Source: Prorocentrum cordatum (lineage: Eukaryota > Sar > Dinophyceae > Prorocentrales > Prorocentraceae). Taken from it: DNA of 64,000 bases. A program made the position numbers and the translations under genes. The stretch's first letter is position 1; every line of letters begins with the position of its first letter. The stretch lies in contig CAUYUJ010015743.1 of the NCBI GenBank assembly GCA_963575745.1, positions 118,045 to 182,044 on the forward strand, in the 5' to 3' direction. This document shows positions 27,015 to 44,993 of this stretch, in pieces. The notes below the pieces were generated by a model that did no database searches, was not told the origin of the DNA, and saw only the letters and a list, made by a program, of their open reading frames with translations.

Positions 27015-27036
27015 TCCGTAACCATTTTGGCTCAAG
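27015..27036 (+). other. Genomic relic of the dinoflagellate spliced leader (DinoSL)
   Basis: Twenty-one of 22 positions match the known DinoSL: the 3' 15 bases CCATTTTGGCTCAAG are exact, and the only mismatch is one A for G after CCGTA. The leader is normally joined to mRNA by trans-splicing, so a genomic copy upstream of an open frame means a trans-spliced mRNA was reverse transcribed and reinserted. The next 20 bases (CAGTAG...GCTCAG) loosely resemble an older, decayed second leader. Confidence 0.9.
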
Positions 27037-27274: not shown

Positions 27275-27516
27275 ACTTTAAGGGTAGGTCTTTGGGAGAT
27301 GTTATAGTATCGGGAGCATAGCTCGCGCGCGCCGATGCCTTTGGCCCAAGGCACGCGCGCCCTATTTGCCCGGACACCGCGAGTGTTCGCTATGTGCTGG
27401 AAACATCATTACATCGATCTTATCCTATCTTATCCGTCCACCCCTCATACTGTACCTTCACAGCAGAGCGATGGGCGCTATTTGCCATATTTGAGCTACC
27501 AGGCTCACTTTCGACT
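27275..27516 (+). repeat. 5' LTR (242 bp)
   Basis: Compared with the 3' LTR it has five substitutions and lacks a 4-bp TAGG duplication. It begins ACTTTAAGGG and ends TTTCGACT, not the canonical TG...CA. It contains two in-frame ATGs (27335 and 27392) that open the Gag frame. Confidence 0.9.
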
Positions 27517-28816
27517 TGGTAGCGGAGCTGGCCGCACTCTCGTGTGGTCAGCTCTTGCTCTTCTTAGCCTCATTTTCTTCGGCACGATCTTCGTGACCAC
27601 CTACCACCCTGCGCCACCACTCCCAGTACGTTTACGAGGATCTATCCAAGAACAAGAAGCAACACGAGAGGTACGACGTCTAGACGACCAGACTGGTACC
27701 ATATACGCTTCATCATTGCGTTACCACCAACCGCTCGGCAACGAGCTAACAGCGCAATACTTGAAGCAGGGGCGGGGGGACCCGCCAGACAGAGCGCCTC
27801 GAAGACTCGACAAGGCGCTACCCCAGCGCGACAACGCGCATCATAACCGTCCTTCTCTACACATTCTCGGGCTAGTCGTTTTCGCTATTATATGGTTCGC
27901 GCTGGGGGCAGCAATCGGACACATGCGTCGAGGAGAAAACAGCACCGATGGGCAAACACATGGCCCATATTGGGACCCTCAAGGTAATGTACCTTTTCGT
28001 GAGTACATCTACGAGGTCAACGCATGGCTCAACGTTACTAGCGGACGTATGACGCCACAGGCCCAAGCGGCCGCAATACAACGCGGCCTAGGTGGCCTAG
28101 CGAGGACATTCGCCATGAGGGTACCGCCTGACATTATAAACTATGGTGCTGACATCGATGGGGTCCACACAGACCCAGTGACCTACAACATGTTCCTCCT
28201 AAGCATGAAGTTCGAACGCCTGGAAGATGAGCGACAGCTCACTTCCGGCACACAACTCATCGACTTCCACGTGCCTCACGGGGAACGAATCGATGTCATT
28301 ATAAACTATGGTGCTGACATCGATGGGGTCCACACAGACCCAGTGACCTACATCATGTTCCTCCTAAGCATGAAGTTCGAACGCCTGGAAGATGAGCGAC
28401 AACTCACTTCCGGCACACAACTCATCGACTTCCACGTGCCTCACGGGGAACGAATCGATGTCACCCTTACCCGATTCGAAATGGCCCGACTTGAGGCACA
28501 GTCGGTGGGATTTGACCTTCCCAACTTCCAACTGCTAACCACTATCCTATTCCGCGCCTTAGGCGTCGGCAACCAGCGAGCCATGCAACTCTTACAGCCA
28601 CTCAATCACCAAATGCCCCGAACACAACAACAGTATGATGAGTTGCTGGAGAGGATGCGTTCGATAGGCCACCTATCTGAACGGTCTCCTGGTAACATAG
28701 GATCTGTGTTTGGAAGAGGAAGGGGATCTGGTAGTGGAAATTTCTACACTACCTTGACTACTGAAGCCCAGCCTGGAAACGAGCCCTCAAGCATATGGGC
28801 CGATGACCCAGGATAA
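27335..28816 (+). CDS. Gag-like protein with two N-terminal hydrophobic segments
   Basis: 493 codons; the first ATG lies in the LTR and another in-frame ATG at 27923 (residue 197) is a plausible start. Residues ~205-470 match the general pattern of copia Gag in dinoflagellates: an FREYIYEVNAWL-type helix, a long helical middle and an IGHLSERSPGNIGS-like end. Residues ~68-90 and ~175-197 are hydrophobic and could span a membrane if translation starts upstream; this is unusual for copia Gag. Residues 267-321 are repeated at 322-376. The frame ends at TAA 28814-28816, yet the same frame stays open for another 900 bases into the CCHC region. The stop is thus a mutation or a readthrough site. Confidence 0.8.
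   Translation: MPLAQGTRALFARTPRVFAMCWKHHYIDLILSYPSTPHTVPSQQSDGRYLPYLSYQAHFRLGSGAGRTLVWSALALLSLIFFGTIFVTTYHPAPPLPVRLRGSIQEQEATREVRRLDDQTGTIYASSLRYHQPLGNELTAQYLKQGRGDPPDRAPRRLDKALPQRDNAHHNRPSLHILGLVVFAIIWFALGAAIGHMRRGENSTDGQTHGPYWDPQGNVPFREYIYEVNAWLNVTSGRMTPQAQAAAIQRGLGGLARTFAMRVPPDIINYGADIDGVHTDPVTYNMFLLSMKFERLEDERQLTSGTQLIDFHVPHGERIDVIINYGADIDGVHTDPVTYIMFLLSMKFERLEDERQLTSGTQLIDFHVPHGERIDVTLTRFEMARLEAQSVGFDLPNFQLLTTILFRALGVGNQRAMQLLQPLNHQMPRTQQQYDELLERMRSIGHLSERSPGNIGSVFGRGRGSGSGNFYTTLTTEAQPGNEPSSIWADDPG
27517..27531 (+). promoter_or_regulatory. Primer-binding site, initiator tRNA-Met-like
   Basis: TGGTAGCGGAGCTGG directly follows the LTR. Its start is complementary to a tRNA 3' end reading CUCCGCUACCA, which fits the initiator Met tRNA acceptor of many eukaryotes (ends GCUACCA). 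Copia-type elements commonly prime from tRNAiMet. The host tRNA is not in the window, so identity is inferred. Confidence 0.75.
28133..28462 (+). repeat. 165-bp in-frame tandem duplication within Gag
   Basis: 28133-28297 and 28298-28462 are near-identical (AACATG versus ATCATG, CAGCTC versus CAACTC). The unit is 55 codons, so the frame is kept. Confidence 0.97.
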
Positions 28817-29740
28817 TCCACTGCTTTATTAGCAGGGGATCGATCGCAACCAAGCGGGGCAACCAGCCCTCCTTCTAGAGAACCACAACCACACCGCTCC
28901 TTATGGGGGGAATCAAACCCCCTAACCGACGGTGTATCCACCTACTTGGGAGACGAGGATTTCGACTCCGGCACCGATACAGACACTATATCATCAGATG
29001 GTGTTGAAGTTCTAGATTGGTCAGATATCATGAATATGGATAACGACAATCGGCGTGCTGAACATTTGTTCTGGTTACTACAACAAGCTAAACCAAGGTG
29101 GAGGAGGTTCACGCGAAAACCAGTGCGTCGTGTTAGAAGGAGGATACGGAGAAGTTTTAAGGGAAAAGGTAAAGGTAAGCGAGGTCGTCGGAGGTTGAAC
29201 GGACGAGGCATCGCGGCATTTCTCCAGAGGCTCTCAGATGAACAACATGATGAGATATTCTTTGGGGGAAAAGGCCGTGGTAAAGGCCGTAGAGGGACCT
29301 CAGGAAAAGGCAAAGGCAGGCGGGGAAACCCGCGAGGTAGCGACGGCCAGGTTCTTAAATGCCATGAATGTGGTAGTTCCGATCATCTTGTACGAGATTG
29401 TCCAGTGAGGGGAAATGGAAAGGGCAGGTCGACCGAAGTCCATTTTGGCTCAAGTGAACCATCCATTGAGTATCTGAGCCTCCAGGACTTTGAGGCTATG
29501 GAGCAGATATTTTTCACTTGGGTTGTTGGCATGGACAACGTCGACGAGCTCGAGGCGTATGGTCATGGATTGTACGCGTACTACCTCGAGTACGTCCGCC
29601 GGTTCGTTATGGGCAATAACGAGCTCACTCCCGTGGACACGGTACGCTGGGAAACCAGCCTCTTTCTTTCTTCGACTGGATGTTCGGGAACCCAGGCAAC
29701 ATCATGGCCTACGAGAGTAGCGACGAGGACACCACTATAG
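28817..29740 (+). CDS. Gag continuation: basic region and CCHC zinc knuckle
   Basis: The frame continues from the TAA at 28814 without another stop to 29740; no good ATG is needed if the stop is read through (an in-frame ATG lies at 29030). A Lys/Arg/Gly-rich stretch (about 29095-29330) precedes a retroviral-type knuckle, C-x2-C-x4-H-x4-C, encoded at 29360-29401, that would package RNA. A spliced-leader relic lies just after it and is translated in frame. Near 29650 the frame gives way to the next (-1) frame at a GNRA hairpin (29646-29659). Confidence 0.8.
   Translation, partial: STALLAGDRSQPSGATSPPSREPQPHRSLWGESNPLTDGVSTYLGDEDFDSGTDTDTISSDGVEVLDWSDIMNMDNDNRRAEHLFWLLQQAKPRWRRFTRKPVRRVRRRIRRSFKGKGKGKRGRRRLNGRGIAAFLQRLSDEQHDEIFFGGKGRGKGRRGTSGKGKGRRGNPRGSDGQVLKCHECGSSDHLVRDCPVRGNGKGRSTEVHFGSSEPSIEYLSLQDFEAMEQIFFTWVVGMDNVDELEAYGHGLYAYYLEYVRRFVMGNNELTPVDTVRWETSLFLSSTGCSGTQATSWPTRVATRTPL
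29432..29454 (+). other. Spliced-leader relic embedded in the gag coding region
   Basis: The last 15 bases, CCATTTTGGCTCAAG, are an exact match to DinoSL. The preceding CCGAAGT matches CCGTAG with one substitution and one extra base. Chance is very unlikely for a 15-base identity. The site is inside the open frame after the zinc knuckle. It implies that an internally trans-spliced element RNA was once copied back into the element lineage (inference). Confidence 0.85.
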
Positions 29741-31877
29741 AGGCTTCGCCTTCCGAGGTTCAACGACACCTCGAACCTCCGCCCGAAATCCCGCCTGGAA
29801 ACAGGCCGTCTTTGATGGGAGAATATCCCCAGACCACTGAAGACTTAATTGAAATGGAGTCTCAGGCATTTGTTCAGGCCTTCATTGCAGGCGAACCAGA
29901 TACTCCGTTTATACCTCCTGGTTCGCTTGCTCCAGGCGAATATGGACCACGCACCCTTTTGCAGACCCTCATGAGGATGCATGAGATACTTATTACTGGT
30001 TATCCTGAGAGTCAAGAACATATCGAAGCTGACATTATGATAGAACAGGATACTGATGCTTGTGGTAGCTCAGAGCTGTTGTTGGCAGCTCTGACTCTCA
30101 TTGACAGCGTGCATCCTCAGGACGTGCAGAGACACTTGATATACTCCCGTGGTAGATGGCGTAATGCTCTAGAAATGGCTATTGCTATGCGCGGTCATGA
30201 TCTTCCTCCGCCAGGATGGGGTCTCCAGGCGGTGGGAATGTGGCCAAACCATACGGCCATGCGCAATATTGCCGGGCAGCCTGTGCTCGGCAACGAGCCT
30301 GAGCCGACAACAGCGCCTCCTACCCCGGGACAGCCGAGCGACGCACAGACGCCGGCTATGCAGGGAAACCTGCCTGTACCAGATACGCCAATGGCCATCA
30401 TCATAGGTAGTTCGACATCAGAAGAAGTTGAAGGCGATGGTTGCGGGTTAGATGAGGATGACGTCACCATCCTCATGATGGACGTGAATGGTGAGGAAGA
30501 GGTTGACTTCGATCCTGATGAGTCTGAATCATCATCACCATCGGCACAAGCGCCATTTGCGCCGAGCTCCATCCAGCAGGGAGACCTGCCTCCATCGGAC
30601 GATCCATCTGGGATCGCACAGGAGCCTCCTCAGGCACCTCCACCGGGTGCCGCTCCTGCTGCTTCGGCAGCTTCTTCTGATGAGAACACCAGAAGGTCTC
30701 GTTCCCATACGCGCGTCAGAGAAGAGCCACATCCACAGGCTCGACTTCCTCGTGAGTGGAGGCAGGCTGGCCCAAAAGAACACGCTCTTAGGAGAGGTGG
30801 CCAGCTACTTCCGTACAACGACCCAAGACGCCGAAAAGGGGAACACTCGGCCTTCGGCAAGGGCAACCCTGCCTATAGGGGCAGTGATGGCAAGGCCATC
30901 CGCGGAGGCTATCAGATTGCAACAAGTATCCGCCGCCCTGAAATTCAAGAAGCGCGGACTCAGCTGCGAGACATTATCGCGGCGCGCAAGCAGTATAGGC
31001 CTCACGCAGCATGCGGACCTTGTTCCGAGCCGTTCCAGAACCACAGGCCAGGATGCCCCGTTGGCAACAACGAAGGCCTGAGCCCCAACAGGGGCAAAAC
31101 CCCTCATAAAGAGGGCCATCCGCAACTTATCCCGATGACACAGGACGAGATCGCAGAAGTGAATCGTCGTCTCGGGATCTTGAGCCACCTGGATCCGAAA
31201 GAAGAAGAGAAGCCTACTCCTGTTCCAAGGGGACTGGTAGCCACGACCCAGGAAGAAAAAGACGCGCTCTTTAGTCTTCCTAGTATGCGAGGAAACTCGC
31301 CTGGCGTCTCTAGCGAGTCCCAACAACCAGAACCGACAATCAAGGGCGAGAAAAAGGCTCAACGTGTGGCGGAGGACGAGGAGCGTATGCGGACAGCAGA
31401 AGAACGCACTCGCGAGGCAACTCGCAAGATGTTGGAGGATTCTAGTAAGATCTACATGAAGGGGGCTACGAAGCCCCCACTCCCACTAACTTCGAAGGCT
31501 AAGAGTGAACCCCCGACACCTAAGCCGTCCTCGGTGCCGAAACCGAAGACGAGCCCTCAGGACCCTGGGCCAGACGTGCAGATGGGAGAGAGCGTGATCC
31601 ACCGCCGCTTTACTGTGGAAAATTGCCAACCTTTTCCTCCGGAACCCGGGGGTCGCCCCCCCCCCCCCTCCGAAATCCCACCCCCCCCCCTGGTGGAACC
31701 TCCCCCCCCCCCCCCCCCCCCCCGGAACCCAACCCTCCCCCCCCCCCCCCCCCCCCTCCTCCCGGCAAACCCCCCCTCCCACCCCTCCCCCCCCCCCCCC
31801 CCCCCCCGGATCCGGAAAAACCGGGGGGGTCACTACCGGTTAGAACCCCCCCCCCCCCCCCCCCTCCCCCCCCCGCG

Positions 31878-31918
<41 letters not shown>

Positions 31919-32199
31919 TACTCACCGCCAGCAAACGACTCCGGGTCCCCACCACCGTCCGCATCACATCCCCCACTGGTGTTCCCAGCACCACTGTCCT
32001 CACCACCGCTGTCCCCACTGGTTCCACCACCGCCCCTACTGTCCCCACCAGTGGCCCCACCACTGTCGCACTGTCCCCGCTGTCCCCAGAACTGTTCCCA
32101 CCACGGTTCCACTCTCCCCACTGTCTCCACGGCCCCAACCACTGCCCGACTATCCCCACTGTCCCCACTGTCCCACTGACTCCTCCGCTGTCCCACTGA
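29680..32199 (+). CDS. Element linker protein: acidic and proline-rich, no known domain
   Basis: Reads in the -1 frame relative to Gag; the first ATG is 29680, but the frame is already open upstream with the hairpin at 29646 in its usual Gly-Asn phase. Residues ~40-190 are helical and well composed, possibly a capsid-associated part. Then come acidic and Ser/Pro-rich stretches and a charged coiled-coil-like segment (about 31340-31460). Element-derived coding ends near 31640. From there to 32199 the frame runs through the nested poly-C/CACTGTCCC insertion and is not native. The native frame resumes in the same phase after about 32790. Confidence 0.65.
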
Positions 32200-32790
32200 G
32201 CTGTCCCACTGTTCCCACCACTGTCCCCACTGTCCCCACCACTGTCCCCACTGTACCTCTGTCCCATTGTCCCACCGCCGTCCTCGCCACCGCCTTCACC
32301 ACTGTCCCCACCACCATTGTACCCTCCACTGTCCCACTGTTTCCACCTCATTCCCATTGTCCCCACACCACTGTCCCCACCACCACCGTCACCACCACTG
32401 TCCACTGTCCCCCCCTGTTCCCACCATTGTCCCCACCACTGTCCCCACCACTACCGTCCCCACCACTGTCCCACTGTCCCACTGTCCCCACCACTGTCCC
32501 GCTATCCCCTCACCACTGTCCCCACCAACACCGTCCCCACCACTGTCCGCACCCCCACTCGGTTTTCGAGGGGGGGGGGGTTCGAACCGGTAGTGACCCC
32601 CCCCGGTTTTCCGGATCCGGAGGGTGGGGGGGGGGGGAGGGTTCGAACCGGTAGTGACCCCCCCCCTTTTCATGATGAGCTGGGGGGGGGGGGGAGGGGT
32701 TCGAACCGGTAGTGACCCCCCCCCGGTTTTCCGGGAGGGGGGGGGGGGGAGGGGTTCGAACCGGTAGTGACCCCCCCCGGTTTTCCGCCA
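31650..32790. repeat. Nested low-complexity insertion bounded by inverted repeats
   Basis: C-runs (31655-31920), a CCACTGTCCC-type satellite (31920-32560) and G-runs (32570-32755). An inverted block, GGATCCGGAAAAACC...GGTCACTACCGG, at about 31808-31846 is mirrored at 32580-32622 (GAACCGGTAGTGACC...GGTTTTCCGGATCC). Further direct copies of the right-hand block lie near 32644, 32700 and 32756. The insertion separates two parts of one reading frame that keep the same phase. TTTTCC lies at both edges and could be a target duplication or part of the repeat. The homopolymer length is suspect as sequence. Confidence 0.75.
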
Positions 32791-34359
32791 GCAGCGGTAG
32801 AACACGCTCTTTCGCAGATGGAGGTGCCTCGAACTGAAACTCCGAGGCCGCCGATTGGCGCAACTCCTACACAAGCGTCTGAGCCCAAGCAGCAACCTCA
32901 GGACCCTATGGAGGAACGAAGACGCCCGCCTAGTCGCAGCAGCTCCATTGCGAAAAAGGCGGCAGCTTTCGAGCGTAGTGGGTATGCACCTGCGCCAGCT
33001 TCGCCTGTGGCGGCCCGTTCCAGGAGGTCCGATGAAGGTGCTATGTCGAGGGGTACCTGGGTGCCGAAGATCAGGGGCAGCGCCAGTCGCGCATCTCCGC
33101 GGGGAAACCCGCCAGGCGCTGCCGCCGCAGCTTCCTCCTCTTCAGGAGCTGCAGCCTCTTCAGCAACAGAGGTTCCGATGCGGGGAAACCCGCCAGTGGT
33201 TCAGCTGCACCACCCAGGTGACACGTCCTTCACTAGTGGGACTCCGAAGGTGATCAGGGATAGACTTGCGCTTCGGAAGATCCCACCGATACGCTCGGTG
33301 GATGAGACATTCATGAAGGAATGCAGGAAAGCTGGAATCCTTCCCACATCAAATGACATTCTCAAACAGCTGAGTAAAGCTCTCAGCAGGATATGCAGAC
33401 ATGCGCCAGACAGACCACACAATCCTGTGTGGGGCCTGGAATCCTTCGATGATCATGATGGTTGGGTTAACCTAGTGGAACTCGTTGACCATTATCCGTG
33501 GAACACAGGTCAATCAAGACACGCTGGGTATAATCCAAAGTATGACGAGGCCAAGGTCATCAACGAGCAGCTATATGGGCGCTCGGTTGACCAACTAGCA
33601 GCCATCATGATGGAAGTTGTTCATGTCCGTGAACCAGACGGAGAAGAAAAACAACGCCTACAGTTCAAGGTGTTGATGCGGGACTCTGGAGAGCCCGCTA
33701 TCTTCATCCGCGCCTCTCAGGGGCATTCATGGGCATTGAAAGCCCCATGGTCGCTGTACAGCTACATTGTGCTGTGCGACCAACCTGCCGGGAGACCGGC
33801 CCCATGCCCCGAAGTTGCTATGCATGGCACTCGATGGCACGCCTTCGAAGGGATTATGTATCACGGCCTGTCCTGTAGACCTGAGCATAACACGAAGAAG
33901 AGATGGACAGGCCGGTCGCACATTCATTTCGTGCCGACAGTTCGCCGTCGTGCCGTGAACAGTGGGTGGGACCCAGACTCAGACATCATCATCTTCGTAG
34001 ATTGGCGTAAGGCCATACAAGATGGTATGAAGTCCTGTTGGTCCGATAACGGAGTCCTTTCGTCCGAGGGAAATAACGGTATCATCGAACCGTATTACAT
34101 CTCTCATGTAGAGGACCTGTCCACGGGAAGGCACTGGCGTAATCCAGAGTATCTGGGGAGCCGCCATGCTCGAGTCTCTGTCGCAATGATGTCTGCTCCT
34201 GACAGGTGGGCTGACGTTGGCACTGCCAGCGTCAAATATCAGTGGTCCCGAGACCAAGAGGGCGTCGACCCCCCCATGGTCTACCTCCACAGGGAAGTTG
34301 GGGACACTATAGCCCCACCAAGCTGGGAAACCAGCCTGAGATCCATCGGATCTTCATGA
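32767..34359 (+). CDS. Element-encoded Tpt1/KptA-type RNA 2'-phosphotransferase domain
   Basis: 530 codons in the same phase as the linker ORF, so it is probably its continuation; the ATG at 32767 is inside the nested repeat. The catalytic domain is residues ~187-460. It has the family pattern in order: L-S-K-A-L-S-x-I-C-R211-H212; G-W-V-x-L-x-E-L-V; I-R315-A-S-Q-G-H-S; H353-G-T; R383-S-H-I-H-F; and a D-x-x-K-A-x-x-D-G end followed by a NGV and P-x-Y-I. The R-H-R-R residues correspond to the catalytic tetrad known for Tpt1. This enzyme moves the internal 2'-phosphate at an RNA splice junction to NAD+, after tRNA-type ligation. To my knowledge it is not a standard retrotransposon domain. Gly-Asn hairpins sit at 33099 and 33180. 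The frame ends at TGA 34357, just after the hairpin at 34322-34335. Confidence 0.85.
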   Translation: MTPPGFPPAAVEHALSQMEVPRTETPRPPIGATPTQASEPKQQPQDPMEERRRPPSRSSSIAKKAAAFERSGYAPAPASPVAARSRRSDEGAMSRGTWVPKIRGSASRASPRGNPPGAAAAASSSSGAAASSATEVPMRGNPPVVQLHHPGDTSFTSGTPKVIRDRLALRKIPPIRSVDETFMKECRKAGILPTSNDILKQLSKALSRICRHAPDRPHNPVWGLESFDDHDGWVNLVELVDHYPWNTGQSRHAGYNPKYDEAKVINEQLYGRSVDQLAAIMMEVVHVREPDGEEKQRLQFKVLMRDSGEPAIFIRASQGHSWALKAPWSLYSYIVLCDQPAGRPAPCPEVAMHGTRWHAFEGIMYHGLSCRPEHNTKKRWTGRSHIHFVPTVRRRAVNSGWDPDSDIIIFVDWRKAIQDGMKSCWSDNGVLSSEGNNGIIEPYYISHVEDLSTGRHWRNPEYLGSRHARVSVAMMSAPDRWADVGTASVKYQWSRDQEGVDPPMVYLHREVGDTIAPPSWETSLRSIGSS

Positions 34360-34580
34360 TCACCGAGAGTGAGGCCGGGAGCGCGGCTCCAAGCCGTGCC
34401 CCAAGCCAAGGGCCTAGTGCCGTGTCTTGGCAGGCCATCAGTACCTCGGACCTGGATCAGATCGCAGCCGCGCTGAACCCTGACCAGGTAGAACAGCTGG
34501 CGGACAGGTTATACCAGCAGGACCCCTGGGCCGCAGGCCAGGGGCAATGTCCGCTATGGCTACGAGAAATCGTCAGGCCA
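34322..34580 (+). CDS. Short bridging frame between the Tpt1 and RING ORFs
   Basis: After the hairpin at 34322 the coherent protein continues one frame back (phase 0). It gives a Ser/Ala-rich stretch and then a helix-like segment rich in Asp, Gln, Leu and Ala (about 34455-34520). Near 34540-34580 the sense passes to phase 2, used by the RING ORF. Both changes are -1. Function unknown; it is most likely part of one polyprotein broken or recoded at these points. Confidence 0.5.
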
Positions 34581-37500: not shown

Positions 37501-37876
37501 ATTGCAGGGAAACCTGCCCCAGGGGTTGATGGAGACGCTCGCCAAGGCCACCATGCGAGGCGACAACATCGACGATCTTGAGACGTTCGATTGTTTTGTT
37601 GCCAGGACACTGGCCCAGCATGGTGGAAGTGTACCCATGGACGCTGTGCAGTCCCGCCGTAAGATAGTGATGGGATACACCAATCGTGAATTGCATACGG
37701 TCAGCGACGCTAGGTCCAAAGGCGTGCTGAAACAGCTGATGGATAATCCATCGATGCTGACAGCATTTGCGGAGCAATCCGCCTCTGAGGCCACGGCGCG
37801 CTGCAGTGCTGAGCTCCAGCATCTAAGGGAAGCCCAGATGCTGGCAGATATTGCAGGCACATCTTCTTCATCTTGA
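34547..37876 (+). CDS. Element polyprotein part: RING-H2 finger and aspartic protease
   Basis: 1109 codons. A RING-H2 finger occupies residues 350-401: C350-x2-C353-x14-C368-x-H370-x2-H373-x2-C376-x21-C398-x2-C401, the fold of E3 ubiquitin ligases. Residues 462-586 are repeated at 587-711. A retropepsin-like domain lies at ~800-930, with I-L-I-D813-V-G-S at the active site (most families have D-T/S-G) and an I-L-G-L-D motif near 895 matching the second conserved block. It would cleave the polyprotein. At least nine GNRA hairpins lie in this ORF. It ends at TGA 37874-37876, and the same phase remains open to 38962, so the stop is a lesion or a recoding site. Confidence 0.85.
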   Translation: MSAMATRNRQAMQGNLPTSGPARFEPMHGSPTQSMHTPRGMTPLGTPPAQSPFGTPVRPATNGTLMERIAAARAEHSTALLNMMPPGTPTSQQGNLPGTPSHHRASVPDDYRSRVAAAVQQVQSHNLPHPSGQRWRPAWSWEPEGPNPRDPARQRAFIPAFNAHPSMSQGQRPPPAQMNPPLYPDGSRVPNKFVRELADQMHNLTNVRCSDHSMYPHMAFMPSPTSPEVVVQPTAHSISSGSRGVPDYIRQTHHTQQACFRRRQAVQSVRDQSRAAALDVVRNRGSPLRGNSPAVTPTTSMPNVEVQEVLNPAGTPPSAFMPSETVLERQRRVYPRAADVEVFTGMEDTCPVCLEEFQPRDSVYRLRCNHLFHEGCWNSNVVGHVANQREGDPQQPPCAICRAPGIIASSFPWAGFFSQTPEQSARELRELRSMVEEMTSRMLAMQTAPSQQQGYLPEEVRPPMETGYFDQLIPMTAPQQGNLHDTPQMSPQSGGEAEMSLDPDQLRELRVRHFQNQMDNTHTTFMLDANNPETDSPSLDLSESSVASAATAARAVNIAATNEEFEEWLQYRDHITNEGLQDIALQPPMETGYFDQLIPMTAPQQGNLHDTPQMSPQSGGEAEMSLDPDQLRELRVRHFQNQMDNTHTTFMLDANNPETDSPSLDLSESSVASAATAARAVNITATNEEFEEWLQYRDHITNEGLQDIALHSYLTLTRRTTREQYKSIRDEYANWREERGDHAQHVSYFQCIDLARMAESESHASVMRGNPPGSTTVPRGNPPTDTADTSETVHIKQPSKTFLDDGGNSILIDVGSKINIMGENTSRKFVQAAEAHGRTCTFEPRSRLNINGVGEGSAPADTVGTFSIACEYQGSAQLDSYKTNIVSGCGKDLPAILGLDSMQDKRTIIVLERGQEKLIFPGKGQVKMELPEGSKIMPTTKLPSGHLSIRCDCFGAAGQPASSSSSTSFQTVLTGEPTPAQERKQLQGNLPQGLMETLAKATMRGDNIDDLETFDCFVARTLAQHGGSVPMDAVQSRRKIVMGYTNRELHTVSDARSKGVLKQLMDNPSMLTAFAEQSASEATARCSAELQHLREAQMLADIAGTSSSS
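35930..36679 (+). repeat. 375-bp in-frame tandem duplication
   Basis: 35930-36304 and 36305-36679 differ at only a few bases. Each carries one copy of the hairpin (35983 and 36358), showing that the hairpin was already in place when the segment duplicated. Confidence 0.97.
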
Positions 37877-38059
37877 AGATGGCAGGGCGACGTCGCCCCC
37901 TCGTCGTCTTGCCTATTAACTAAAAAGCCGGGGGGTAACAAGGACAGCGGGGTAACCTGCCTTAGTAAGAGGGCTTTTGTCATTGAAGATACGAGGGAGG
38001 CCTGTGCCGACCTTCGCACACGAGGTTATATTTGTGACCGTATTTCCCACAACGAACTT

Positions 38060-38962
38060 ATGACAAGCGTGGGCACAAGCTACCTAGGTGCGGTGATCAG
38101 TGGAGATTACACTCTCATATGGATCAGTACTCCGAGTGACTGGTACGTAAGAACTCCAGGAAAGAGAGTGGCCCCACATTGGTCACGTATCCAGAACCTG
38201 TTGATAAAAGCCAAGAAACTCCGCATGAAGATCATAATATTTGGTCCCCCAGGATATGTTTGGAAGTTATCTCCAGTACGTGACGCCCTGGAAGATCTAA
38301 AGTTGTCAGTAATACGGATGCGTTTGTGTCATTTCGGTATTCGGTTCAATATGCAAGACAGTACACCAAGCGGTACGTATATGCAGGTAGCATCTTCAAT
38401 ACCGATTAGCTCGAAGCTGTGGGCATGTACCTGTAAGCAGGCAATACCACAACATGTGTTGGATTGGTACGGCCATACAGTACGGCATGCTGAATGGCGA
38501 GCTCAGACACGTACTACACTCATCCGTCATTTGAACGACAACATCCTGGGGAGCACCACCACGCACGGAAACGTGCCTGTATACTTAAATACGTATACAC
38601 GTACAGACCATAACACCCGTCACTACGTGACGACTAATAAGGGAGGACCAAAATGGTCTGAAGTCATCCGACGTGTAACAATCAACCTGGATACCAATGC
38701 GGTTATTCAGGATATCTCAGTTACCGATCAACCAACAGGATATGATTGGCATGCACCATTACCTGCAGGGGTTGCCAACATCAGTACTCGGTTGTATTGG
38801 CAACCCGAGGAACCGGTCTTGCTCGGAAACGAGCCGACTCAATCACCACAGAAACATCGACGCGTCATCATAGATGACTGTTCTCTCCCCCTCCCGACTC
38901 TGGCGATTGACGCATGTACCCATTCAACCACGACAATGAGTACACAGACCGACGAACAATAA
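38060..38962 (+). CDS. Unknown element protein, possibly a decayed methyltransferase-like domain
   Basis: 300 codons; the phase is open from the TGA at 37876. The layout recalls the methyltransferase-like segments of dinoflagellate copia proteins: a hydrophobic strand ending I-S-T-P-S-D-W where a catalytic P-C would stand, a second strand I-I-I-F-G-P-P-G, then R-L-C-H-F-G-I, then a Cys/His-poor tail. If that reading is right the catalytic Cys is lost. This rests on pattern memory, not a search. Hairpins lie at 38563 and 38821. The C-terminus (TDEQ) leads into the next ORF by a +1 shift beside an imperfect 10-bp duplication (ACGAACAATA/ACGAGCAAGC). Confidence 0.45.
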   Translation: MTSVGTSYLGAVISGDYTLIWISTPSDWYVRTPGKRVAPHWSRIQNLLIKAKKLRMKIIIFGPPGYVWKLSPVRDALEDLKLSVIRMRLCHFGIRFNMQDSTPSGTYMQVASSIPISSKLWACTCKQAIPQHVLDWYGHTVRHAEWRAQTRTTLIRHLNDNILGSTTTHGNVPVYLNTYTRTDHNTRHYVTTNKGGPKWSEVIRRVTINLDTNAVIQDISVTDQPTGYDWHAPLPAGVANISTRLYWQPEEPVLLGNEPTQSPQKHRRVIIDDCSLPLPTLAIDACTHSTTTMSTQTDEQ

Positions 38963-41900
38963 CGAGCAAGCTTTACCCACTGAATCGCGTATAAAGCAGA
39001 AGGAGAGGTTCAAAGCCGAAAAGGAAGCAGGCATCAAGCCTCGCCGCATTAAAAAGCACGTTGAAGACGGAAGCGATGATTGCGGCGACGACTTGTCAGG
39101 ACTCGGACAGGATCTTATGGCAACCTGGAGTACTGACGTCCCTGTTGAGCTGATAAGCTCCGACGAGGACGATGACCTGTTCCTTACCCTCCCCACATCT
39201 ATGCCCGACACACGCGCTAACATATACAGCATAGTTGCTACACTATGCTATGGTCATAACAACTGCGTGGATATGTTGGAGCTTTGTGGCGGTGAGGGTG
39301 GCATCTCAGAGCTGGCCTTCTCAAGGGGACTTTCCTCGGGCGGCAACCTGGACAAGACTGCATATGTCGACCTGGGAGACCCCTCGGTGCAGCAGGTTAT
39401 AGATCATTACTTTGCTATATGCTACGTACGAGTTGCCATACTGCAACCCAGCTGCCGCACCACGGGACCACCATCCTACTACAACTACAAAGTCAACTAC
39501 AACACTTGGGAACAGCACCATAAAGAAGACTTACCACACATAACTTATTGTGGTAAAATTGCTGTAACCCAAGATGACGCTCGGAGGTGGTTTATACGCG
39601 AACAACCTACGGGAACATGGGTAGATTATATTTCTCCATGGAAGAAGTTTGCCAACCGACCGCGCATTACAACCGTGCGCATTGACCAATGCGCTACGGG
39701 ACTTAAAGACACGACTGGTGACTATATTAAGAAGCCGACAAATATCACCAGCAATGACGAGACAATTCTTAAACCCTTTGAGCGACTCAAGTGTAACGGT
39801 CAGCATGTGCACGCACAACCGTGCAATACCGAGCTTTCACTGGCACAAAAATACACCCGACGACTGCAGTCTGCCTTCGTGGAAGCTGTATATCTGGCGA
39901 AAGCCATTGACACCACGCGCGGAAACGCGCCTATAAGTACCGCACATGCTTATCCTACAGACCTTCCCGATCAAGCTGAACCAGGCGAAGGTATGAGACG
40001 CATCGGTGATCGTATCATCCCAAAGGTGGCTACTTGCCCGGCATGCATCGACAACGTCCGAAAGGACAGTCCTAGCCATAACAGAGACCCTACGCAGTGT
40101 AAATATCATGATTCCATCTCTGTATATTGGCCATGTCCAGCATGTCAGAGGGATCTTACGAGAAGCAAGGGTGTTAAGAACCACCTCGATACCGAACCTG
40201 GTAAATGTCGTTTTGCTGAACCATTTAAACTGCCAGACGACCACGACCCCGAAGGCAAAACCGTGCCAGCTTGGTGGAAACCCTTACCTAAACCTGGTGA
40301 GGGCCAAGCTTCAGCTTCAGGTGGCCGTCAAGGCGCACGCGCCAGGCCACCACGACCACGATCCTTCGGCAACGTCGATCCGACATCTGGTGCCAGCAGC
40401 TACGACATGCTACGAGACGCCCCCGAGCGTGGAAACACGCCTTCTGCGTCTTCTAGCGAAGTGCCACAGGTAGCGGCCCGCCGCGGCCGTCTACAAGGCG
40501 TACCACCACCTCCAGACGCAGTTAACACAGGGGACCAACTACGGAGAGCTACAAGGAACCCTCTTGCCTCCACCGGCTCTGGGGCTCCACGACTACCCGA
40601 CTGGACGAGATTCGACATCCAACACAGTCTACAGAGTCTCCGTAGTCACGAACCTCATGTCGTGAAAAAGGAACTCCGAAAACTGCATCTGCGATGGCAT
40701 CATGCGAAGGAGCCAAAGATGAGGCTAATCCTCGAAAAGGTGGGGCTTGATAACGTTCGACTGAACATGATCAAGGAAGTTTGCGATACCTGTCGGGAAT
40801 GCAGAGCATGGGAACGTCCAGGAAACTCAACACTACCATCGGTGAGCCTTCCTGGTAACTGGCTCGATGAAGGGGAAATGGACCTCATGTTTTACAAGAA
40901 ACGGACCATATTTCATATTATGGATCGTTGTATTCGCCTGGCAGCAGGCCTAGAAATTTCCGACAGAGAACGTGACGCTATCATCGACGCCTACCACTAC
41001 TGCTGGATTGCCTATCACGGACCCTTCAAAGTTTTATACTCAGACGGAGAAGGCGCCCTGAATAACGATGCCGCTAAAACCATGATGGCCAATAAGGGCA
41101 CGGAACTTCGTATCCGAGCACCTGGCCAACACGCGACTTCAATTGAGTCACGAAACGGCATTCTCAGAGGCGTCCTCCACATGATTGAGGAAGAATTGAA
41201 TAGACACAACATCCCTGTTGTATTCACTAGAGTATTGGCGGAAGGCATCTTCGTTACTAATGCGTTTACGTTTTATAACGGAGTATCGCCATATCAGGCA
41301 CACACAGGACGTCAGCCCTCTTTCCTCCCTGATCTCGATACCCTTGACTTTCCCAAGGGACCCGAGACTTCAGGACACGAACGAGAACGTCGTGTAAGGG
41401 AAGTCAGCCTAGAAGCTATAACTCAGGCTACTGCTGTGGCCAAGACAAATCGGGCTCTTAGGGCTAAGACGACTCCTGATGGTGCTCGCCTCTACTCATC
41501 AGGGGATTTGGTCGATTACCACCGACCTACTGCCACCAAGGACGACCATGGAGGCTGGAATGGCCCATTCCCGGTGATCCGAAATGTGCCTGAAAGAGGA
41601 CATATTGTTGTCAAGGCAGGATCTCGTGAGGTAATTGTGATGTATCCTGATGCTCGTCACACACTATACATCGAATGTCTCCTCACACGGGAACTTGGCA
41701 TGGATAATATGGCCATGCAAACCGTCCTTGCTTATGTGGCACACCTCAGCGCAGGGAAACCTGCCAAAGTTTTCGGTTATATCCCCGATTACAAGGGAAA
41801 CCTTAATCTGTCAGACGACAGCAAGTTCCACCCGCGCGTACACTTAGCACTACAGTATCTCGTACGAAATTACTTCCGAGTAGAACATGTAGTAGCAGTT

Positions 41901-44381
41901 CGACTGGCTAAGAGTGTGTCAAGCTTACCTGCAGTAAAGTACGCCACCGGATCTACGCTGATCCACTATGACAACGACATCAGCCCGGCGTTCCACTACT
42001 ACGAATGTGTGGGCACCGGCTTAAACATTTCTCAGATCATTGGTAGCAGTCACTCCAGACTTATTCAATGCTTGACTTCACGTGTCCCTTCCTTAGGATT
42101 TCACGACGATTTGGTTAAATATCAGCATTCAAGCAACACGTCTGGGGAACACGAGTCGCCTGGAAACAGGCCTTCTCCAGACACACCAGATGCTTCATCG
42201 CCGAGTGAAGGCCGTCTGTCGACAATCTATGAGGAAAATGAGGAACACAATATCGAAGCTATGATGCTGGAAGAGTGGTACGACGAGCTACGTATGGACC
42301 TTCATCCTACGACGATTACTGATGATTATCTTTATTGCGTCCCAACAACTATGCTGCCCGACCAATGTGTTTTGATTTCAGCATTTGTGGACGAAGATGA
42401 TATTATATCATCTGATATGCTCGGAGACGAGCCGAAATCACGTGAATCCTGTCTAGTCTCTCTTTGTTCAACCACAACCGACGAGAGCTACTCTCTTGAC
42501 AGTGATGAATATGGTCCTTACGTTGAATTATGTTTTACATCGGAAATGTCAAAAATAGTGTTGGATCAGGCTCAACTTGCACAGCTCGATACTGATATGG
42601 TCGCAACGATGAGAGTATATGTATCCTCTGCTGCTAAATGTGCTGTGGTTGTCAAAGAAGATGATCTACTGACCAAAGCCGACATAGCAGCACATCCAAA
42701 GGAGGTTAGTGAAGCTTTGTATACTGAGTTCAAAATCTGGATTGATACTCGATGCTTTGAGATGTATGATTTATCCAAAGCTTCCAACATCATGACATCC
42801 AGATATGTATACAAGTGGAAGTTTGTAAAGATGGGTACCGAGAACGTTAAAACCATTCGTCTCAGACTGGTCCTTCGTGGATTTATGGATACTGAGGCTT
42901 TTGATGTGGAAACATTCTCGGGGACCGCCCGAAGGCAGTCCCAACGACTCCTGGCAAGTGAAGCGGCATGCCATCCAGAGTGGATCTTAGCATCCATGGA
43001 TATCGATAAGGCGTTCCTCAAGGGTTTGACCTATGAGGAACTTGCCCATGCCACCGGCGAGGAAACTCGCATGGTTTGCTTTACTCTTCCACCAGGAAGT
43101 GCTCAGGTACTTCGTACATTGCCCGGCTTCTCATCCTACGACGAAAGTCGACACTGTCTTAGATGCCTCAAACCAGGAACGGGTACAAAGGACGCTCCAA
43201 GAGCGTTCTCTCTCAAACTTCGTACGACCACACGAGCTATAGGACTTACACCGACCAGCTACGATCCTGAATTTGAATTCAGCCAAGACCTTCTGACGGC
43301 AAAACATGTCGATGATATTAACATGACAGGTCTAGAGAAAAATATAGACGACTATGTACAACGTGTCGAACAGGTGTTTGGCAAATGCAAGCTCAACAAG
43401 CACACATATACGAACTGCGCCGTTCGCTACACTAAGAATGATCAAGGAGTTGTGATCATGGACCAGGACGCGTATATCAAACAACTACGTCCTATCACAC
43501 ACCCAGAACTTACAGGAGCGGCGGCCGATGCCAAAGCCACGAAACTCATTACCGACATGTTCGTCAGCCTGCGAGGAGCCCTCGCCTATGCCCTTCTTAC
43601 CCAAATCTGGCTCATGGTATACGTGGTCTCTCTTCAGAAATTTCAAGAGCCCACCAATCTGCAAGTCAGACGTCTGAATGCTGTGGCGCGAAAGCTGATC
43701 AGCAGCCCGAAACGTATCACCTTCCCTCGGATGAAGCCGACGAATGAAGTTGACATCCATAGCGATTCGGGGTATCGGAAGCTTACCGGGGAGGAGGATG
43801 ACGAGACCAAGGGCTACGGCATACGCGGGGCCAATGTACTACGGCGAGGAAACTCGCCTCAAGGCAAGTCCGTCGTTCACCTCTGTGACGGACTATGCAA
43901 ATCACACCGATTACAGGTGAGGTCCAGTTATGCTGCGGAGGCACTTGCAGCTGCACATAACCTTGATGAGTGTTACCCTACGCTCATTACTCTCCACGAG
44001 CTTGAGGCAGGAGCTTTGACTCCACGACAACTACGAGACATGCGTGAAGTTGGAGGCCTAGCTATCAAAGTCTCTCTTACCATAGACGCCGAGTCCGTCT
44101 ACAAATCTTTATCAAGCAGGGATCTCAAGATACCTACAGAACGGACTCTGCTTGGACATATCAGCTGGATACGTGAGCTCATGGATATAGGTATAGTACA
44201 TAATGTGCAATGGTGTGATACTAGGGATATGACCGCAGATGGGCATACAAAGGGAAGCATCGATCGGGAGCTGCTTCTGGAAGTGATGTCAGGCACTCAG
44301 TCATTTAAGTATGACGTGAAGCAATTTGTTCCCTTTCGGGGTCCCGAGGACAGAGACAAACCTAAGTCTAATCAATTTTAG
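38940..44381 (+). CDS. Element Pol: methyltransferase-like segment, integrase, reverse transcriptase, RNase H
   Basis: The open phase begins at 38940. Residue numbers below count from the TTG at 39093. Residues ~58-245 resemble a C5-methyltransferase fold: L-E-L-C-G-G-E-G-G, D-L at 93-94, Q-P-S-C (118-121, for P-P-C), E-Q-P (170-172, for E-N) and D-Q-C. A Cys/His cluster is at ~312-370. Integrase: an HHCC zinc part (~525-570) and a DDE triad D597, D651, E685. Reverse transcriptase: M-D1303-I-D-K-A-F-L and H-V-D1407-D1408 in place of Y-V-D-D. RNase H: D at 1554 and ~1558, E in S-S-Y-A-A-E-A, D in T-I-D-A-E-S, and a W-C-D-T-R-D-M-T-A-D-G-H-T-K end. All catalytic residues of IN, RT and RH appear present over ~5.4 kb without a stop, so this part could still be functional. 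Confidence 0.93.
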   Translation, partial: VHRPTNNNEQALPTESRIKQKERFKAEKEAGIKPRRIKKHVEDGSDDCGDDLSGLGQDLMATWSTDVPVELISSDEDDDLFLTLPTSMPDTRANIYSIVATLCYGHNNCVDMLELCGGEGGISELAFSRGLSSGGNLDKTAYVDLGDPSVQQVIDHYFAICYVRVAILQPSCRTTGPPSYYNYKVNYNTWEQHHKEDLPHITYCGKIAVTQDDARRWFIREQPTGTWVDYISPWKKFANRPRITTVRIDQCATGLKDTTGDYIKKPTNITSNDETILKPFERLKCNGQHVHAQPCNTELSLAQKYTRRLQSAFVEAVYLAKAIDTTRGNAPISTAHAYPTDLPDQAEPGEGMRRIGDRIIPKVATCPACIDNVRKDSPSHNRDPTQCKYHDSISVYWPCPACQRDLTRSKGVKNHLDTEPGKCRFAEPFKLPDDHDPEGKTVPAWWKPLPKPGEGQASASGGRQGARARPPRPRSFGNVDPTSGASSYDMLRDAPERGNTPSASSSEVPQVAARRGRLQGVPPPPDAVNTGDQLRRATRNPLASTGSGAPRLPDWTRFDIQHSLQSLRSHEPHVVKKELRKLHLRWHHAKEPKMRLILEKVGLDNVRLNMIKEVCDTCRECRAWERPGNSTLPSVSLPGNWLDEGEMDLMFYKKRTIFHIMDRCIRLAAGLEISDRERDAIIDAYHYCWIAYHGPFKVLYSDGEGALNNDAAKTMMANKGTELRIRAPGQHATSIESRNGILRGVLHMIEEELNRHNIPVVFTRVLAEGIFVTNAFTFYNGVSPYQAHTGRQPSFLPDLDTLDFPKGPETSGHERERRVREVSLEAITQATAVAKTNRALRAKTTPDGARLYSSGDLVDYHRPTATKDDHGGWNGPFPVIRNVPERGHIVVKAGSREVIVMYPDARHTLYIECLLTRELGMDNMAMQTVLAYVAHLSAGKPAKVFGYIPDYKGNLNLSDDSKFHPRVHLALQYLVRNYFRVEHVVAVRLAKSVSSLPAVKYATGSTLIHYDNDISPAFHYYECVGTGLNISQIIGSSHSRLIQCLTSRVPSLGFHDDLVKYQHSSNTSGEHESPGNRPSPDTPDASSPSEGRLSTIYEENEEHNIEAMMLEEWYDELRMDLHPTTITDDYLYCVPTTMLPDQCVLISAFVDEDDIISSDMLGDEPKSRESCLVSLCSTTTDESYSLDSDEYGPYVELCFTSEMSKIVLDQAQLAQLDTDMVATMRVYVSSAAKCAVVVKEDDLLTKADIAAHPKEVSEALYTEFKIWIDTRCFEMYDLSKASNIMTSRYVYKWKFVKMGTENVKTIRLRLVLRGFMDTEAFDVETFSGTARRQSQRLLASEAACHPEWILASMDIDKAFLKGLTYEELAHATGEETRMVCFTLPPGSAQVLRTLPGFSSYDESRHCLRCLKPGTGTKDAPRAFSLKLRTTTRAIGLTPTSYDPEFEFSQDLLTAKHVDDINMTGLEKNIDDYVQRVEQVFGKCKLNKHTYTNCAVRYTKNDQGVVIMDQDAYIKQLRPITHPELTGAAADAKATKLITDMFVSLRGALAYALLTQIWLMVYVVSLQKFQEPTNLQVRRLNAVARKLISSPKRITFPRMKPTNEVDIHSDSGYRKLTGEEDDETKGYGIRGANVLRRGNSPQGKSVVHLCDGLCKSHRLQVRSSYAAEALAAAHNLDECYPTLITLHELEAGALTPRQLRDMREVGGLAIKVSLTIDAESVYKSLSSRDLKIPTERTLLGHISWIRELMDIGIVHNVQWCDTRDMTADGHTKGSIDRELLLEVMSGTQSFKYDVKQFVPFRGPEDRDKPKSNQF

Positions 44382-44747
44382 TCTGTCCTTGTTGCCCTCG
44401 CGGTCCAATTTGCCAGCACGGGCGCCTACTATAAAGGCGCCCCTCTAGTTGCTCGGAAACGAGCCTTATATTTCACGCCTGGCAGCGAGCCGGCTTCGTA
44501 CAACTCAGGCTCTTTGCCTTAATACAGATTTGCTTGGTGAGGTATGGCCTGTTTGGCTTACCTCTAACTGAGCCGATAGCCCTTCATTGTTTGAAGGGGC
44601 TGTCTTGTATTTGCGTGAAATGCTTTGCGAGGGAACTCGCCTTGCAGTCTGGTGTTAGGCCAGACTGTACGCACTGTTTTCCTTTTTGCAAGCAGTCGTG
44701 CGCGCGACCGTTGCGTGCGACTATGCTCTCCGTCTCCTCCCCTCCCG
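44382..44747 (+). other. Element 3' untranslated region
   Basis: Follows the RNase H stop. It carries hairpins at 44451 and 44627 and ends in a polypyrimidine stretch (44726-44747, CTCTCCGTCTCCTCCCC type) just before the 3' LTR. A retroelement would be expected to have a purine-rich tract on this strand; none is obvious. Confidence 0.7.
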
Positions 44748-44993
44748 ACTTCAAGGGTAGGTAGGTCTTTGGGAGATGTTACAGCATCGGGAGCATAGCT
44801 CGCGCGCGCCGTTGCCTTTGGCCCAAGGCACGCGCGCCCTATTTGCCCGGACACCGCGAGTGTTCGCTATGTGCTGGAAAGATCATTACATCGATCTTAT
44901 CCTATCTTATCCGTCCACCCCTCATACTGTACCTTCACAGCAGAGCGATGGGCGCTATTTGCCATATTTGAGCTACCAGGCTCACTTTCGACT
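44748..44993 (+). repeat. 3' LTR (246 bp)
   Basis: About 98% identical to the 5' LTR; begins ACTTCAAGGG with an extra TAGG and ends TTTCGACT at 44993. Confidence 0.9.

Follow-up and report, generated by a model that had tools for sequence, protein, structure and literature searches.

Why does one retrotransposon carry the same short hairpin about 40 times along its internal region, and always on the same strand? This question is raised by a 64,000-nucleotide stretch of the Prorocentrum cordatum genome (GenBank assembly GCA_963575745.1, contig CAUYUJ010015743.1, positions 118,045 to 182,044; hereafter the window), in which a copia-type long terminal repeat (LTR) retrotransposon of 17.7 kb occupies positions 27283-44993. 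An earlier note on this DNA had described about 36 hairpins with GNRA loops in the element and had proposed either selection at the RNA level or a mobile palindromic unit. We found that the element contains a sense-strand array of about 40 copies of the motif, and that selection maintains them for their paired fold rather than for the peptide alone.

A Sense-strand Array of Paired Hairpins

A strict scan for the pattern GC-nnn-GNRA-nnn-GC with a perfect stem identified exactly 36 hairpins in the element, all on the + strand, the first at 27733 and the last at 44627-44640 (Table 1). The - strand of the element contained none. Outside the element there were none on the + strand and one on the - strand (25014). 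The motif consists of a 5-bp stem with fixed GC ends, almost always a G-C closing pair, and a GNRA loop, and the base right after the unit is C in 30 of the 36 cases. The perfect units differ at stem positions 3-4, where ten dinucleotides are found. The 36 perfect units were confirmed, with two corrections: an A-T closing pair at 37769 and five degenerate units (27826, 28771, 28854, 35902 and 37947), all of which but 28771 are intact in other copies of the element. The hairpins are scattered over the internal region, the LTRs having none, and their placement fits a uniform spread (Kolmogorov-Smirnov p 0.52). Regular spacing was rejected, since the units depart only a little from random placement towards evenness (P 0.08), and we claim no ruler.

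The density of the hairpins was compared with that in two kinds of randomized sequence. Synonymous-codon shuffling of the open reading frames (ORFs), the comparison on which the earlier note had staked its claim, yielded a mean of 1.8 and a maximum of 6 hairpins (n = 1000) versus the 34 coding hairpins observed, and a first-order Markov version of the element yielded a mean of 0.06 and a maximum of 1 (n = 300) versus 36. A scan of the element without the pairing requirement gave 43 matches to the motif, of which 36 were fully paired. Pairs were then counted over 41 units (the 36 perfect and 5 degenerate ones, 28 of them distinct). The stems proved to be paired beyond chance, with 98.6% paired cells versus 77.5% in shuffles and a covariation score of 0.528 versus 0.102, neither value being reached in any of 500 shuffles; sliding the partner by one column lowered the paired cells to 24 or 44%. 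Two weaker measures were matched more often, both-side-changed pairs in 16 and further pair types in 65 of 500 shuffles. Folding in a 194-nt context predicted a mean pairing probability of 0.83 for the sense strand, 0.64 for the antisense strand and 0.53 for 26 other tetraloop stems. These predictions support hairpin formation on the sense strand, although a few units, e.g. 30285, are predicted to be unfolded in this context.

Of the 36 perfect units, 34 are coding and two lie in the 3' untranslated region (UTR). As the earlier note had stated for most of them, 26 of the 34 coding units share one codon phase, in which they are read as x-Gly-Asn/Asp-x, often followed by Pro; the remaining eight fall in the other two phases. 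The presence of units in the 3' UTR and in all three codon phases indicates that the peptide alone is not the target and that the RNA is the likely one.

Conservation of the Hairpins in Ten Genomic Copies

Ten further genomic copies of the element were aligned. Their identity to the window copy is 64-96% over aligned pieces longer than 150 nt; one of the copies (c107) is partial. The copies had been chosen from a genome listing of one paired pattern, that with the AG stem (stems are named here by the dinucleotide at positions 3-4). The duplicated site 36358 was dropped before counting, leaving 35 sites and 350 site-by-copy cells, of which 28 were gapped or missing. The hairpins mostly keep the same places in the ten copies. 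In the remaining 322 cells, the stem was letter-identical in 283, and the 39 changed stems comprised 9 fully paired double changes, 9 with one G-U pair, 1 with departures to G-U only and 20 broken by a mismatch other than G-U. The paired double changes occur at four sites (27772, 29646, 31287 and 35902, where AG and GG stems alternate), several of these cells sharing one event by descent. The loop was changed in 76 cells, 54 of which were still GNRA and 22 of which were not. Overall, 275 of the 322 units were intact, 223 of 258 at the 28 sites without the AG stem and 52 of 64 at the 7 sites with it, the outcome being the same for both sets of sites.

The stems change far less than the coding sequence around them. 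At the 26 coding sites without AG stems, only 23 of 908 third-codon positions in stems differ (2.5%), whereas 12039 of 45249 differ outside the hairpins (26.6%). At the same sites the stem mismatch was 1.9%, versus 15.8% in windows of the same ORF and phase (500 draws, sd 1.4, minimum 11.5%). The most variable letters of the unit are letters 2 and 3 of the loop, which are free or half free under GNRA. The hairpins in the 3' UTR are retained in most copies. In the sense strands of the ten copies, 331 matches to the motif were found, of which 288 were paired and 48 were expected to be if the two halves were independent, and the antisense strands contained 3 matches in total.

These results bear on whether the peptide (xGNxP, or AGQPA) is what is selected, for example as a linker or protease site. 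The predominance of one codon phase speaks for such selection, as does the position of many hairpins, which by eye seem to lie outside recognized domains. However, the UTR units, the three phases and the nearly frozen third positions reject it as the sole cause. In that role it is largely refuted, and we regard a peptide-level explanation as scarcely credible.

The flanks of the copies contained only 2 units in 43.6 kb, both strands combined. A host factor might read the hairpins and thereby affect export, stability or translation of the over-long transcript, or its evasion of silencing, and the uniform spread of the units, including the UTR, and their restriction to the sense strand would suit such a factor. 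Still, the 2 units in the flanks and the 1 unit in the window outside the element give, short of a systematic survey of host genes, no sign of wide use by the host, and we consider this explanation unlikely.

In three copies (c15, c70 and c337; loci L011-L012, L017-L018 and L027-L028), the last 3' UTR hairpin (44627) has a longer form that looks like a tandem hairpin pair.

Paired Halves and the GNRA Loop in the Whole Genome

Exact occurrences were counted over the 4.13-Gb assembly, each with a reversed-sequence control. The paired AG-stem unit occurs 5249 times (control, 3), and a version with mixed halves, one of them taken from another common stem, occurs 7 times (control, 3). The AG stem with a UUCG loop occurs 18 times (control, 14). 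Because the UUCG version is near its control, the GNRA loop is favored for the AG stem and mere stability is not; generic hairpin stability is thereby made unlikely as an explanation, for the one stem counted. Taken together, the site-by-site conservation in ten copies, the compensatory changes, the UTR units, the three codon phases and the genome-wide counts of one paired versus one mispaired version support the earlier proposal of selection at the RNA level.

The background level of the UUCG version of this stem also suits an architectural role. GNRA loops are classical docking elements, and the caps might dock into receptors in the same RNA and compact it. The 11-nt tetraloop receptor consists of two halves; in neither order did a search of the element find these halves at a distance of 40 nt or less (0 cases). 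An architectural role of the caps appears quite improbable to us.

Distant Families and Protein Relatives

To compare more distant elements, we used a relaxed rule, set after locus L030 was seen, which allows G-U pairs and GNNA loops. L029, L030 and L031 had been chosen as isolated matches to the AG-stem pattern, so that one hairpin in each is not independent. L030 and L032 represent a distant family in the same genome, with 34% amino-acid identity in the nucleocapsid region and 38-66% in pol regions. On their sense strands, 14 and 5 units, respectively, were found under the relaxed rule and none on the antisense strands, as against 40 and 0 in the window element; the strict rule gave 3 sense and 0 antisense units in L030. 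In L030, twelve units fall in an open reading frame with the translation Ala-Gly-x-Pro-Ala, a second frame being also open at some of them. Because these units are in a different phase, the RNA motif is similar and the peptide is not, which is a further point against selection on the peptide. One sequence, which includes a G-U pair, accounts for seven of the 19 relaxed units of L030 and L032, and three hairpin copies in L030 are spaced 24 nt apart. Judged by its sequence, the distant family carries the same hairpin design with a "dialect" of its own.

The same units bear on a possible role of the hairpin at the DNA level, such as in single-stranded cDNA, where GNNA loops fold as well. Eight of the 19 relaxed units have GCGGG/CCTGC stems (7 with GCAA and 1 with GAAA loops), whose G-U pair favors RNA, and the strand bias disfavors a double-stranded cruciform. 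A double-stranded DNA palindrome is made unlikely by the strand bias and the G-U pairs, and we hold a DNA role in general to be very improbable.

A protein search with the reverse transcriptase (RT) region yielded 89 relatives, some in entries named Symbiodinium. Peptides of the form xG[ND]x that are consistent with a palindrome number 58 in 23 close proteins (RT identity at least 58%; 40,290 residues), at least one being present in 17 of the 23, and 19 in 66 distant proteins (identity at most 48%, with one partial match at 53%; 121,184 residues). The reversed control gave 21 in the close group, itself a raised value, and 32 in the distant group. Six of the 23 close proteins lack a consistent peptide. 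Peptides of the xG[ND]x form that do not fit a palindrome are frequent, too (90 in the close group and 149 in the distant group), and phase-0 peptides are few (6 in the close group, control 0; 8 in the distant group, control 7). Where hairpin 42419 aligns, palindrome-consistent peptides occur in 13 of 24 sequences (counting that of the window), with the residue pairs L-E, R-S/T, H-V and P-R. Individual relatives have their own flavors, P0016 repeating PGNRI and P0020 and P0022 repeating HGNV or HGDV; from these peptides, families seem to have their own hairpin dialect. As back-translated, the P0016 dialect has 0 copies in the P. cordatum genome.

Two relatives that are 76% identical, P0016 and P0019, differ at the peptide level by the presence or absence of two blocks (9 and 8 residues), each containing the hairpin peptide, which suggests that a hairpin may be gained or lost in one piece. 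This is what would be expected of a short palindromic unit that spreads by itself, for example when reverse transcriptase switches templates, and that brings the element hardly any advantage or none; the family dialects and the three L030 copies 24 nt apart point the same way. However, the P0016/P0019 comparison is one of peptides, and among the aligned DNA copies some losses and no clean gain were seen. Mobility alone predicts decay, whereas the units mostly keep their places, change far more slowly than neighboring synonymous sites and show compensatory changes. Thus, the mobile unit of the earlier note finds some support in the two block differences and the dialects but cannot by itself explain the conservation, and we judge it distinctly unlikely as the full account.

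The Element and Its Genes

Near-identical LTRs (234 nt each, 98% identical, differing at 4 of 234 positions), a site resembling a primer-binding site and an RVT_2 polymerase with an integrase-like part upstream place the element among the Ty1/copia retrotransposons. The integrase-like region upstream of RT is a reading by eye, without a Pfam match, and the stretch next to the 5' LTR presumably resembles a primer-binding site for initiator tRNA-Met. No Pfam match was found for the Gag-like ORF. This ORF has two hydrophobic, membrane-like stretches ahead of its conserved region, as do its relatives P0090 and P0091, and it contains a tandem duplication (28129-28458, 165-nt unit, copies 98-99% identical). 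A predicted fold of a Gag relative was too poor (predicted local distance difference test score 35) and was not used. A second tandem duplication (35929-36603, 375-nt unit, copies 98-99% identical) doubles one hairpin. The block at 31585-32814 is of low complexity, with poly-C/G and CCACTGTCC-type sequence, and is unaligned in the copies.

Change among the copies of the Tpt1 ORF is biased to third codon positions. Tpt1-related sequence also occurs in the distant family (L030; 26-27% identity, interrupted by a stop), and the homologue search with this ORF gave no scored match. A full dinoflagellate spliced-leader-like sequence (27016-27036) precedes the 5' LTR by about 250 nt, and a partial one lies in the nucleocapsid ORF (29443-29454); the element may have inserted in a retroposed gene. 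The full spliced-leader-like sequence and the Symbiodinium entries among the pol relatives are in keeping with a dinoflagellate-type host. An Rfam scan of the window at gathering thresholds gave 0 matches, a tRNA scan of the window was empty, and no relatives of the element were found in viral_contigs.

Table 1. Hairpin units and other features of the element in window coordinates, all on the + strand. c followed by a number denotes a genomic copy.
Feature	Positions	Sequence or remarks
Hairpin 1	27733-27746	GCTCG-GCAA-CGAGC
Hairpin 2	27772-27785	GCGGG-GGGA-CCCGC; compensatory change in c56
Hairpin 3	29320-29333	GCGGG-GAAA-CCCGC
Hairpin 4	29646-29659	GCTGG-GAAA-CCAGC; compensatory TG to TC in c2, c78, c130
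Hairpin 5	29793-29806	GCCTG-GAAA-CAGGC
Hairpin 6	30285-30298	GCTCG-GCAA-CGAGC; lost in c2, c78, c130; loop GCAG in c200
Hairpin 7	30360-30373	GCAGG-GAAA-CCTGC
Hairpin 8	30576-30589	GCAGG-GAGA-CCTGC
Hairpin 9	31287-31300	GCGAG-GAAA-CTCGC; compensatory GA/GG pair among copies
Hairpin 10	31412-31425	GCGAG-GCAA-CTCGC; codon phase 1
Hairpin 11	33099-33112	GCGGG-GAAA-CCCGC
Hairpin 12	33180-33193	GCGGG-GAAA-CCCGC
Hairpin 13	33787-33800	GCCGG-GAGA-CCGGC; codon phase 0
Hairpin 14	34322-34335	GCTGG-GAAA-CCAGC; codon phase 1
Hairpin 15	34582-34595	GCAGG-GAAA-CCTGC
Hairpin 16	34822-34835	GCAGG-GAAA-CCTGC
Hairpin 17	35000-35013	GCTCG-GCAA-CGAGC; codon phase 0; deleted in c200
Hairpin 18	35410-35423	GCGAG-GAAA-CTCGC
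Hairpin 19	35983-35996	GCAGG-GAAA-CCTGC
Hairpin 20	36358-36371	GCAGG-GAAA-CCTGC; second copy in local 375-nt duplication
Hairpin 21	36847-36860	GCGGG-GTAA-CCCGC
Hairpin 22	36880-36893	GCGGG-GAAA-CCCGC
Hairpin 23	37415-37428	GCGGG-GCAA-CCCGC; codon phase 0
Hairpin 24	37504-37517	GCAGG-GAAA-CCTGC
Hairpin 25	37769-37782	GCGGA-GCAA-TCCGC; A-T closing pair, may be chance
Hairpin 26	38563-38576	GCACG-GAAA-CGTGC
Hairpin 27	38821-38834	GCTCG-GAAA-CGAGC
Hairpin 28	39917-39930	GCGCG-GAAA-CGCGC
Hairpin 29	40427-40440	GCGTG-GAAA-CACGC
Hairpin 30	41751-41764	GCAGG-GAAA-CCTGC; codon phase 0
Hairpin 31	42158-42171	GCCTG-GAAA-CAGGC
Hairpin 32	42419-42432	GCTCG-GAGA-CGAGC; aligned peptides of relatives palindrome-consistent with other stems
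Hairpin 33	43057-43070	GCGAG-GAAA-CTCGC; inside RT domain; codon phase 1
Hairpin 34	43844-43857	GCGAG-GAAA-CTCGC
Hairpin 35	44451-44464	GCTCG-GAAA-CGAGC; 3' UTR
Hairpin 36	44627-44640	GCGAG-GGAA-CTCGC; 3' UTR
Degenerate unit	27826-27839	GNRA in 6 of 10 copies
Degenerate unit (PGNEP)	28771-28784	intact form in 0 of 10 copies
Degenerate unit	28854-28867	intact in 8 of 10 copies
Degenerate unit	35902-35915	GATA loop; GNRA with AG or GG stems in 5 of 10 copies
Degenerate unit	37947-37960	intact in c70
5' LTR	27283-27516	98% identity to 44760-44993
Primer-binding-site-like stretch	27517-27528	adjoins 5' LTR
Gag-like ORF	27308-28816	named from position and by eye; relatives P0090, P0091
Nucleocapsid-like ORF	28817-29740	CCHC zinc knuckle PF00098, E 0.00033; basic Arg/Lys-rich region by eye
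ORF without assigned function	29620-32199	ends in low-complexity block (about 31585-32814)
ORF with Tpt1/KptA RNA 2'-phosphotransferase domain	32716-34359	PF01885, E 6.2e-23; tRNA 2'-phosphotransferase 7yw3, E 1.3e-10
ORF with RING finger and protease-like stretch	34484-37876	PF17123, E 5.8e-08; protease by eye
N-terminal pol ORF	37877-38962	fused to pol in P0001
Copia-type pol	38940-44381	RVT_2 RT PF07727, E 1.8e-08; integrase-like and RNase H-like parts by eye
3' LTR	44760-44993	234 nt, pair of 5' LTR

A Possible Array of RNA Recognition Sites

By analogy with known systems, we tentatively favor, at somewhat short of an even chance, a multivalent array of recognition sites for an RNA binder that serves selective packaging or condensation. 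The hairpins would be many recognition sites along a long genomic RNA, and the presence of many equal sites on one RNA suggests a reader that engages a large number of them simultaneously. Such a reader would sense the GNRA cap and a short helix and would tolerate changes in the middle pairs of the stem. A candidate is the nucleocapsid region of the element's own Gag, which is basic, rich in Arg and Lys and equipped with a CCHC knuckle; it would select and condense the RNA of about 17 kb that is to enter particles and be reverse transcribed. Packaging or condensation by the nucleocapsid may be the simplest use of the array. New hairpins would arise as short insertions or by being copied from elsewhere in the element, in many cases where the peptide forms a linker, and would then be kept or lost, a process that could lead to the family dialects. 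An extended form of this proposal, which we think unlikely, is a shape-based RNA address code in a lineage of giant dinoflagellate retrotransposons. A 15-nt GNRA hairpin would spread in the element, be kept by selection and diverge into family dialects together with a reader that the element encodes, and each family would thereby mark and recognize its own RNA. In this view the Tpt1 domain, which both families read in that region possess, may contribute to RNA handling within the same system.

Several observations weigh against a recognition-site array or narrow its scope. Single units are dispensable in a copy, because 20 of the 39 changed stems are broken and 22 of the 76 changed loops no longer fit GNRA; old copies may simply be dead, which would explain the broken units. 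In the distant family, loops that are not GNRA (GACA or GGCA) are found in 6 of the 19 relaxed units. Dense arrays are not universal, as another distant relative, L029, is weak, with 2 sense and 2 antisense units under the strict rule and 5 and 2 under the relaxed one. The stems are nearly uniform within some families (L030 and P0016), which a purely shape-reading protein would not need. Finally, the link between the hairpins and the nucleocapsid is one of analogy, and host proteins could be the reader instead.

Comparison with Known Systems

Dispersed packaging signals are hard to study because their sites are highly degenerate. Here the sites are explicit: each element has about 40, and a single genome supplies natural copies by the thousand, which opens the idea of joint marking by many hairpins to direct tests. 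The element would also be a rare example of a retrotransposon in which most genes are under strong selection for structure as well, and the compensatory changes at several of its sites amount to natural experiments.

Two known systems resemble the array in part. The boxB site of lambdoid phages, reportedly a GNRA fold read by the arginine-rich N peptide, likewise has a short stem and a GNRA-like cap, and a basic peptide reader would fit the present hairpins. However, boxB acts in antitermination with few sites per transcript and a pentaloop, whereas the element has about 40 sites, and of a reader only a basic region beside a zinc knuckle is present. Rickettsia palindromic elements, like the hairpins, are palindromes read through as peptide within protein genes. 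They are longer units of bacterial genomes, whereas the present unit has 15 nt, a restricted loop and compensatory evolution and belongs to one retroelement group.

No such hairpin array was found described for any retrotransposon in the titles and abstract openings that our searches of an open-licence library yielded, nor was any open-licence work found that joins Tpt1, 2-phosphotransferase and retrotransposon. As far as searched, dispersed cis-acting hairpins are thus known as a kind and new for retrotransposons. The element resembles the dinoflagellate Ty1/copia elements described in a review (PMC11453091) in its RVT_2 polymerase and its host and differs from them in also encoding Tpt1 and RING domains; the words hairpin and palindrom occur 0 times in the main text of that review. 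A further parallel is viral, and in principle the viral signals work in a similar manner. Sections of the work on human parechovirus 1 report many dispersed stem-loops that contact the particle protein and that a simple search for a repeating motif could not find (PMC5431903), and dispersed RNA packaging signals are described in part of the work on hepatitis B virus (PMC7612645). Two features of packaging signals were found here, multiple stem-loops with a common loop motif and conservation in related genomes, the latter weak in L029. As in those accounts, the stem-loops are scattered and have a common loop motif and degenerate stems (PMC5431903, PMC7612645). Unlike the viral signals, the motif of this LTR retrotransposon is explicit, GNRA-capped and of near-fixed architecture.

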